A DNA stretch of 64,000 nucleotides, taken from the NCBI GenBank assembly GCA_018693315.1, contig JABHLR010000002.1, positions 1-64,000 of the forward strand, given 5' to 3'. Shown in pieces: positions 19,501 to 38,575 of this stretch (within the stretch, counting starts at the first letter, position 1; each line of letters starts with the position of its first letter). This DNA is from an archaeon. Lineage in GTDB: Archaea; Nanobdellota; Nanobdellia; Pacearchaeales; GW2011-AR1. Below the pieces are notes generated by a model that was not told where the DNA came from, made no database searches, and saw only the letters and a program-made list of their open reading frames with translations. A program made the translations under genes and the position numbers.

Positions 19501-19621
19501 GCCGCAGTAGCTCAGTTTTGATAGAGCGCGTCATTGGTAAAGTAAGTTCGAAGAACTTTCATGTTTTGAATTTAAAAATCCAAAAATGACGAGGTCACGG
19601 GTTTGATCCCCGTCTGTGGCT
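19501..19621 (+). tRNA. tRNA-Thr(GGT) with 46-nt intron (19540-19585)
   Basis: GCCGCAG/CTGTGGC acceptor; CGTCA-TTGGTA|intron|A-TGACG; T-arm ACGGGTTTGATCCCCGT. Confidence 0.9.
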
Positions 19622-21309: not shown

Positions 21310-22230
21310 ATGGTTTATCGAATAGGAAAGTTGAAATTGAAGAATCGGTTTTTGTTGGCGCCGATGCTGGAGCCGAATGATGTTGCGTTTAGGTTGTTGT
21401 GCAAGAAGGCTGGATGTGGCTTGACTTATTGTGGGATGACTTCTCCTTTGTCTAGACAGAAGATGTTCTTGGATGATAAGCCTGCGGTTCAGTTGTTTGG
21501 GAATTCGGCAAAGGGAATTGCGAGCTTTATTAAGAAATATGATTCAAAGGTTTCGCTTTGGGATTTTAATTTGGGGTGTCCGTCGAAGTTGTCGAAGAAG
21601 ATGGGACATGGGGCATATCTATGTATTGATGCATTCGCACCCAAGGGTGTACCTCCTGCCCAGAAGGCATCCGCTGGCGCGGACAAGGGAGGCAATATTG
21701 AGACGATTGAGAAAATTTTGAAAGTGATGTGTGGGGCTACTAAGAAACCTGTGACGATTAAGTTGAGGAAGTCTGGGAAGGCTATTGAGATTGCTAAGAT
21801 GGCTGAGAAATATGTTGATGCGATTGGGATTCATGCTCGGACTGCTTCACAAGGTTATTCTGGTGATGTTGATTATGATTTTGCTTTGAGGCTGAAGAAG
21901 GCCGTTTCGGTTCCTGTTATTTATTCTGGGAACGTTAATGAGAAGAATGTTAAGAAAATTTTGAAGGATTTTGATTTTGTATTTGTTGGGCGAGAAGCGA
22001 TTGGGGATCCTGGGATTTTTGCTCGATTGAATGGTAAGAAATCTAAAATCGGATTTAGGGGTTATTTGAAGTTGGCGAAAAAGTATAAATTGTTTTTTAG
22101 GCAGATCAAATATCAGGCGATGAATTTTACGAAGGGTGTTGTTGGGGCGAAGAAATTGAGGTTGGGTTTGATTGGAGCGAAGAGTATTGGGGATGTCGAG
22201 AGGGTAGTTTTAAATAATAAGTTAGGTTGA
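21310..22230 (+). CDS. dus: tRNA-dihydrouridine synthase-like protein with internal palindromic insert
   Basis: NRFLLAPMLEPNDVAFRLLCKKAG, LWDFNLGCPSKLSKKMGHGAYL; extra CIDAFAPKGVPPAQKASAGADKGGN. Confidence 0.85.
   Translation: MVYRIGKLKLKNRFLLAPMLEPNDVAFRLLCKKAGCGLTYCGMTSPLSRQKMFLDDKPAVQLFGNSAKGIASFIKKYDSKVSLWDFNLGCPSKLSKKMGHGAYLCIDAFAPKGVPPAQKASAGADKGGNIETIEKILKVMCGATKKPVTIKLRKSGKAIEIAKMAEKYVDAIGIHARTASQGYSGDVDYDFALRLKKAVSVPVIYSGNVNEKNVKKILKDFDFVFVGREAIGDPGIFARLNGKKSKIGFRGYLKLAKKYKLFFRQIKYQAMNFTKGVVGAKKLRLGLIGAKSIGDVERVVLNNKLG
21638..21695 (-). repeat. 58-bp palindromic element, copy 1 (inside dus CDS)
   Basis: Aligns without gaps to 38505-38562, 42/58 identical by eye; stem TCCGC/GCGGA vs TTTG/CAAA. 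Confidence 0.8.
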
Positions 22231-27439: not shown

Positions 27440-27598
27440 GCTCCTATAGTCTAGAGGCCAAGGATGCCACCCTCTCAAGAGGTGGGAAACCCTCGTCGAT
27501 GAGACAACGGTTTCATGTTCGCTTGAACAACCACTAAAATCTCTCACGAGATTTTGTTGGAGAACGGTGGTGACCCGGGTTCGAATCCCGGTGGGAGC
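27440..27598 (+). tRNA. tRNA-Glu(CTC) with 97-nt intron (27478-27574)
   Basis: GCTCCTA...GCCACCCTCTCA|intron|CGGTGG...CCGGGTTCGAATCCCGGTGGGAGC. Confidence 0.9.
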
Positions 27599-27609
27599 GT
27601 TATACCCTC

Positions 27610-35437: not shown

Positions 35438-35580
35438 GATCCTGTAGCTCAGTCTGATCAGAGCGCTAGTCTTATATGGCTACAGTTCCTCCGGGAATTG
35501 TAAAAGCTTTCGCTTGAAAATCTTTAGGGATTTTCGCTTGAGAAAGCTAGAGGTCCCGGGTTTAAATCCCGGCAGGATCA
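35438..35580 (+). tRNA. tRNA-Ile(TAT) with 68-nt intron (35477-35544)
   Basis: GATCCTG/CAGGATC acceptor, CTAGT-CTTATA|intron|A-GCTAG, T-arm CCGGGTTTAAATCCCGG. Confidence 0.9.
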
Positions 35581-38147: not shown

Positions 38148-38242
38148 CAAATTCACCTCGACAATTGACCAAAAGGTTTAAATAGAAAATCGAATTAGAA
38201 ACATTAGAACTTGCAAAAGAGGGAAAAAGGAGGTTAAAAAAA

Positions 38243-38419
38243 ATGGGAAAAATAATCGCTAAAAATGTCGTTGAACGAAAATCTGGATTTCTATACTATG
38301 TAGACGGAAAGGGAAACGTTTGCGAGGCTAAGATGGCTCGAGGTGGAAAGAAGAAAAAGAAAGCCGCTAAGAAACCAGCAAAGAAGAAAGCAGCCGCTAA
38401 GAAGAAAAAGAAGAAGTAA
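38243..38419 (+). CDS. Small Lys-rich protein (58 aa, below ORF-track cut-off)
   Basis: MGKIIAKNVVERKSGFLYYVDGKGNVCEAKMARGGKKKKKAAKKPAKKKAAAKKKKKK; AGGAGG-like motif upstream. Confidence 0.75.
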   Translation: MGKIIAKNVVERKSGFLYYVDGKGNVCEAKMARGGKKKKKAAKKPAKKKAAAKKKKKK

Positions 38420-38459
38420 TTCTTCACAACTATTATTAATTTTTTAATTTATCATATTC

Positions 38460-38497
38460 AATGAATCTCCCACGTTAGGGAGCTTGGGAGATTCATT
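38460..38497. terminator. Perfect 13-bp inverted repeat with 12-nt loop downstream of the Lys-rich gene
   Basis: AATGAATCTCCCA ... TGGGAGATTCATT. Confidence 0.5.
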
Positions 38498-38504
38498 ATA
38501 ACTT

Positions 38505-38562
38505 TTGCCGAGCTTGTTTGGTTTATCAAATGCCATCTAGGCACGAGGTACACCATTGGGTG
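38505..38562 (+). repeat. 58-bp palindromic element, copy 2 (intergenic)
   Basis: Gapless alignment with the dus insert at 21638-21695. Confidence 0.8.
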
Positions 38563-38575
38563 TTATTTCCCAGAA

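Follow-up and report, generated by a model that had tools for sequence, protein, structure and literature searches.

In-frame palindromic elements in conserved protein genes of a Pacearchaeota lineage: a probable family of mobile, translated hairpins

How does a gene for a tRNA-modifying enzyme come to carry, in frame, a run of hairpins that it shares with an intergenic region of the same genome? The question is raised by the tRNA-dihydrouridine synthase (Dus) gene of a Pacearchaeales genome, within the 64,000-nucleotide (nt) stretch of contig JABHLR010000002.1 that we analysed (the window). The palindromic element in this gene is repeated elsewhere, is absent from orthologues of its host, is restricted within genes in orientation and frame, covaries in its paired bases, and has relatives in which hairpin units are nested. 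We think it probable, at roughly 85%, that it belongs to a family of non-autonomous mobile palindromes confined to one family-level Pacearchaeota/Nanoarchaeota lineage, in which genic copies persist as translated, flexible surface insertions. The host gene and its element are arranged as follows.

21310..22230, plus strand: host gene, Dus, 306 amino acids with a 22-residue insertion (open reading frame, Pfam, orthologue alignment)
21637..21695, minus strand: palindromic element, type A, 59 nt (covariance model R1; BLAST to two other genic copies)
21691..21694, minus strand: 5´ half of the outer stem, TGCC, with its partner GGTA at 21650-21653
21670..21683, minus strand: hairpin 1, TCCGC-GCCA-GCGGA, whose stem covaries strongly (pair changes across copies)
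21657..21669, minus strand: hairpin 2, TGCC-TTCTG-GGCA (covariation analysis)
21638..21649, minus strand: 3´ hairpin, CACC-CTTG-GGTG, the near-invariant tail (covariation analysis; 17-mer GGTACACCCTTGGGTGC)

The Dus open reading frame (ORF) matches PF01207 (E=1.8e-28) over two separate stretches, the best covering residues 118-273. Alignment to nine orthologues from the genus (58-74% identical) delimits an insertion of 22 residues, or 66 nt, of which 59-60 nt are repeat element; none of the nine has it. The original prediction, which had placed an in-frame palindromic element within dus, was right in the sequence, coordinates and hairpins that it gave, and neither of the outcomes that it named as refuting, the same loop in Dus orthologues or a lack of further copies, was found; its figure of about 25 extra residues is too high. 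AlphaFold2, run on the orthologue alignment, returned a confident core (mean predicted local distance difference test score, pLDDT, of 84), with pLDDT below 50 for residues 98-128, situated between two helices, and the insert is predicted to be disordered.

On the plus strand the element reads APKGVPPAQKASAGADKGG(N), and on the minus strand, from 21695 to 21637, it reads TTGCCTCCCTTGTCCGCGCCAGCGGATGCCTTCTGGGCAGGAGGTACACCCTTGGGTGC; the latter is the consensus orientation. Its score against covariance model R1 is 83.5 bits (E=6e-22), the copy being part of the training set. In this type-A layout, an outer stem of TGCC/GGTA encloses two hairpins and is followed by the CACC..GGTG tail hairpin. Three hairpins had been predicted, and all three stand, to which the outer stem around the first two has to be added. 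When single molecules are folded, the outer stem comes out shifted. Among coding copies taken by themselves, standard pairs make up 98% of pair cells and five pairs have changed on both sides; doubly changed cells number 9, compared with 1.2 in shuffles that ignore relatedness, and pairing drops to 31-45% in slid controls. The outer stem is paired in 100% of cells in coding copies, with a G.U wobble in 12 of 15, while hairpin 1 has two-sided changes in three of its five pairs among coding copies, or four of five once intergenic copies are included. The covarying stem is translated as S-AEA-D, S-DES-D, S-TEV-D or S-SKE-D, indicating that the stem stayed paired through changes of amino acid.

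These substitutions bear on the idea that the peptide itself is selected, as a linker, sorting or protease motif whose DNA is palindromic by chance. Such a protein-level module would account for the recurrence of APKGVP...GK in many proteins, with one frame per subtype, yet we regard it as improbable in the extreme, given that paired bases co-change at an amino-acid cost at the very same place, that the peptide is not conserved (subtype C, which has other lengths, is read as GTQGCTP, and once, in TruB, as HPRVYP), and that intergenic copies exist. What all copies have in common is their build: read opposite to the host gene, each starts with T(T/A)GCC, or a sequence close to it, and ends with GGTACACCCTTGGGTGC, and a variable set of hairpins lies between these fixed ends, for a unit size of about 29-111 nt.

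One of the intergenic copies lies within the window, next to a second palindrome.

38505..38563, plus strand: intergenic sister copy (covariance model, E=3.9e-20; copy in the training set)
38460..38497, plus strand: perfect 13-bp inverted repeat adjoining the intergenic copy, conserved together with it in genomes G004 and G016

This sister is the best match to the dus element elsewhere in the window, gapless and with 42 identities over 58-59 nt, as had been claimed, compared with a maximum of 32 for 100 shuffled queries. The window contains two occurrences of the sub-motif GAGGTACACCNTTGGGTG, where the expected number is 0.03. BLAST against the whole genome (674 kb, eight contigs) added two further strong copies, both genic and matching the dus copy at 93% and 86% identity, for a total of four including the intergenic one. 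The sister is matched at 59 of 59 positions by the orthologous site of G004, and G016 has it as well. Together with the inverted repeat and a short lysine-rich ORF (MGKIIAKNVVERKSGFLYYVDGKGNVCEAKMARGG...), the sister makes up a single block at 38240-38563, nearly identical in G004 despite far greater divergence of the genes farther upstream; conservation with G004 ends just beyond the 3´ end of the element.

Could the intergenic copy then be a functional non-coding RNA or 3´ untranslated region element, with the genic copies as its dead, retro-like descendants? The identity in G004 amid more diverged upstream genes, the conservation of structure and neighbouring hairpin in G016, and the G.U wobble pairs on the strand of the intergenic copy are what such an RNA would lead one to expect. 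We consider it very unlikely, however: the short gene immediately upstream shows the same degree of conservation, for which constraint on the entire cassette, or a recent exchange of it, may be the reason; the genic copies resemble each other more than they resemble the intergenic copy; and no Rfam 15 family scores above its gathering threshold for the element, the only matches in the window being tRNAs.

Beyond this genome, further copies were found with model R1, a covariance-model scan having been proposed in the original prediction. The model was built from 16 copies, which count among the hits by construction, and is positive in 10 of 17 genomes of the genus and in 22 of 191 genomes of the family, distributed over 12 of 88 genera. 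The 17-nt 3´ signature GGTACACCCTTGGGTGC, with one mismatch allowed, gave 60 hits in 20 of the 191 genomes and 12 of the 88 genera; its reversed control pattern had no match in the 191, and the signature was absent from all 20 genomes searched in the order's other families. Among 85,488 species genomes (one genome per species), the exact 17-mer occurs in 43 stretches, about 37 of which come from metagenome-assembled genomes (MAGs) titled Pacearchaeota, Nanoarchaeota or archaeon (DPANN), which makes the host a Pacearchaeota-like DPANN archaeon. Hits outside DPANN, in Corynebacterium, Falsigemmobacter, Holophagae, Dehalococcoidia and Neomarinimicrobiota, seem to encode APKGVP, or to carry its complement, by chance. 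One contig of a MAG assigned to Patescibacteria (JAHJTR010000176.1) has a type-B copy, which may reflect transfer or mis-binning. Viral spread was considered and set aside, as the three exact hits in IMG/VR were judged to be chance, with ORFs like those of bacterial phages and element stems not evident around the match; the IMG/VR hit L322 has TTGCC upstream and encodes APKGVPGGGGK. We found no description of this family in Pacearchaeota in the literature searched, a search that most subscription journals lie outside.

About 90 copies were examined within the GTDB family. Element-like peptides, HHGRTPKDFLQKSLQGAK and THQGRTPKDFQRKS, also occur in the LeuRS of G147 (L219) and the TruB of G148 (L237), and copy numbers are lower bounds because of these. 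Automatic placement put 77 of the roughly 90 in an ORF of at least 85 amino acids, 66 of these 77 in the APKGVP frame, and four more were assigned by eye, for a genic total of about 81 (about 90%). All genic copies have a single orientation, which at even odds and ignoring shared descent has a chance of about 10^-24. The hosts are unrelated proteins, identified by Pfam (Dus, uL3, ABCE1, MetRS, thioredoxin-reductase-like, radical-SAM Elp3-like, RNase Z-like, GatB/E, PfkB and TatD) or by reading of the sequence (uS17, uS11, LeuRS, ThrRS, GyrA and Dph2). Pfam domains span the insert in uL3, ABCE1, PfkB and TatD, as well as in the thioredoxin-reductase-like protein. At each subtype length the host frame is open through the element, adding about 10-30 residues per protein as a hydrophilic loop, APKGVP...GK, and among variants of 53, 54 and 55 nt the frame of entry differs as needed for the ORF to stay in frame. 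The phase at the exit is nearly always GGC|AAx in genic copies, even where several frames are open, with one exception (L231).

An open frame would not be needed if the element were removed from the mRNA by archaeal bulge-helix-bulge splicing, or skipped through ribosome bypassing, leaving proteins unaffected. In favour of this, the hairpins are strong. Three long tRNA matches (121-160 nt) in the Rfam scan of the window, at 19501-19621, 27440-27599 and 35438-35580, also suggest intron-containing tRNA genes, so a splicing endonuclease is expected in the host lineage. But removal or bypassing would lift the constraints on frame and stop codons, and yet genic copies stay in frame and contain no stops, the 53-, 54- and 55-nt variants enter in frame-preserving phases, and the nested insertions noted are all multiples of three. 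Stops in the genic frame do occur in intergenic copies: a TAG (CTAGGCA), which closes that frame in the sister at 38505..38563, is found in type A at four of four independent intergenic sites and at none of 15 genic ones (p=2.6e-4). This difference favours translation of the genic copies over splicing or bypass, which we regard as highly improbable.

Comparison of sister genomes shows sites with and without the element as well as differences within it. G147 and G148 form filled/empty pairs at MetRS, a TrmY-like gene, GyrA, ThrRS and GatB/E, and at MetRS alone the empty-site alignment is close to a clean insertion, with a G^A-like junction. At sites that are filled in several genomes, interiors differ, as at uS17 in G003, G004, G011 and G015, at LeuRS between G147 and G148, and at the Elp3-like site across three genera. 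Interior types with the shared ends include B (SVKGDINTE, one long hairpin), C (TTAGTAAAAATATTC..., in another frame), minimal elements of 29-32 nt, and composites. At one orthologous site, type B and type D (L235 and L227) differ by 42 nt positioned after GGTA, an in-frame nested growth; type A (G015) and type C (L236, L260) both have, at GG^TACACC, an inserted 30-nt unit that reads CCTCGGAGAGGTTCTCGCACCTCCTTGGTG or closely resembles it; and Dph2 has a nested unit of 33 nt at an orthologous site. All nested lengths observed (18, 30, 33 and 42 nt) are multiples of three.

On the reading that we prefer, a mobile palindrome with translated genic copies, new copies would insert at many places of a gene-dense genome, and those in genes would survive if the frame is kept and the hydrophilic loop can be tolerated. 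The insert would be translated, neither spliced out nor bypassed, and would probably be near-neutral for the host protein. Genic copies might then endure, given that only in-frame losses would be allowed, while the interior would keep changing by compensatory substitution and by acquisition of nested hairpin units of 18-42 nt, often at a GGTA/GG junction. Mobilisation would presumably occur in trans, with the hairpin as the substrate of an enzyme.

Several points weigh against this reading or qualify it. The long open frame by which copies were called genic is a partly circular criterion, yet copies outside ORFs are very few and sit between genes. A genic share of about 90% is higher than expected if only one combination of orientation and frame in six were tolerated, which would predict a larger intergenic share; longer persistence of genic copies, whose loss must be in frame, is suggested as the explanation. 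Clean empty sites are rare: the empty alleles of GyrA, TrmY and GatB/E differ by more than the element, and exact boundaries are not fixed because the pairs other than MetRS differ by additional codons. The 3´ flank is uninformative and shows no target motif. Finally, neither a transposition event nor a target-site duplication nor an enzyme that mobilises the element was identified in the genomes compared, and no longer, autonomous copy with the same ends was present among the loci fetched.

A resident Y1 transposase (HUH; IS200/IS605 or RAYT-type) acting on single-stranded hairpins would supply such an enzyme, and would make these elements akin to repetitive extragenic palindromic (REP) sequences or miniature inverted-repeat transposable elements (MITEs). 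Bulged, wobble-bearing hairpins beside a 3´ tail hairpin, and nesting at the tetranucleotide-like GGTA, do resemble the ends of single-strand transposons, and Y1 genes are present in 73 of the 191 family genomes. We consider this possible but doubtful. The search, which covered PF01797 only and was made on incomplete MAGs, found Y1 in nine of 22 element-positive and 64 of 169 element-negative genomes (no association, p=0.82), with no match in the genome of the window, and in none of about 36 loci examined was Y1 flanked by the element. More tentative still, and in our view unlikely, is a modular mobile-hairpin system in which units of 18-42 nt would insert one after another, both into each other at GGTA/GG and into genes, with a bias that leaves the exit phase nearly constant (GGC|AAx). 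It might be driven by a novel hairpin-mobilising enzyme or by hairpin-templated replication, and would keep diversifying the surface loops of essential DPANN proteins.

The nearest functional parallel is with the Rickettsia palindromic elements (RPE; Ogata 2000, 2002) and their Wolbachia counterparts, a likeness in working rather than a claim of sequence homology. These are dispersed, hairpin-forming palindromes that lie between genes as well as, in frame, inside conserved genes unrelated to one another, where regions that tolerate the insertion gain a conserved peptide by translation (PMC2229807, PMC10969869, PMC2996958). They belong to alphaproteobacteria and measure about 105-150 bp, and about half of the R. 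conorii copies are in genes. The archaeal element is likewise palindromic, hairpin-forming and dispersed, in frame in unrelated protein genes as well as intergenic. Unlike RPE, it comes in units of 29-111 nt, is about 90% genic, has ends that are invariant across genera, and grows by nesting of hairpins. The exact 17-mer scan of species genomes gave no Rickettsia match, exact matching not being a test of homology. The comparison to RPE drawn in the original prediction holds in principle, given one orientation, in-frame placement and dozens of unrelated conserved genes, while the novelty that it attached to an archaeal setting does not. Palindromic repeats fused into protein genes have been described for Methanocaldococcus jannaschii (Suyama 2005, as cited in PMC2229807 and PMC2996958). 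By that second-hand description, the two share the property of archaeal palindromic repeats of which some are in frame in protein genes. Reportedly, only three of about 141 of the M. jannaschii elements (MJRE) are in coding regions, whereas nearly all Pacearchaeota copies are. The archaeal setting alone is not new; what differs is the size, the genic share, the ends shared across genera, the nesting and the lineage.

Other short palindromes are more distant. With REP sequences, which are mostly extragenic and have GTAG or CGTC tags (PMC3733652), and their RAYT partners, the element shares short, many-copy hairpins and a possible single-strand hairpin substrate, but it has neither tag, is about 90% genic, and is neither associated with nor adjacent to Y1. 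As regards a MITE, the comparison turned up a TGCC/GGTA stem, no clear target-site duplication at empty sites and no parent transposon at the Y1 loci examined. In PARCEL of Mollicutes, palindromic DNA also encodes a protein segment (PMC2996958). PARCEL forms amphipathic tandem arrays in surface proteins, in contrast to single insertions in housekeeping proteins here. Before this, palindromes that encode protein had been described chiefly in two genera of obligately intracellular bacteria and in a single methanogen; the present family extends them to small-genome DPANN archaea, where they sit in ribosomal proteins, aminoacyl-tRNA synthetases and enzymes of tRNA modification. As sister genomes offer orthologous sites that are filled, empty or nested, the long-standing question of how such elements move and grow can be tested by comparison. 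Inserts that go unrecognised also have consequences for annotation and alignment of these MAGs and for phylogenetic markers such as uS17, uL3, MetRS and GyrA.

Two minor observations concern host proteins. In the TatD that carries a type-A element (L002, on contig G000:C8), GAPPQVPSEEGKDG at residues about 80-91 resembles a second, diverged minimal element. The Dus proteins of G007 and G011 (L144, L139) have further lineage-specific insertions, such as SGQLLKNGTRTNTDEHGLKG in G007, which recalls the GTRTSDEV nested unit, and there may be additional palindrome families in the genus.
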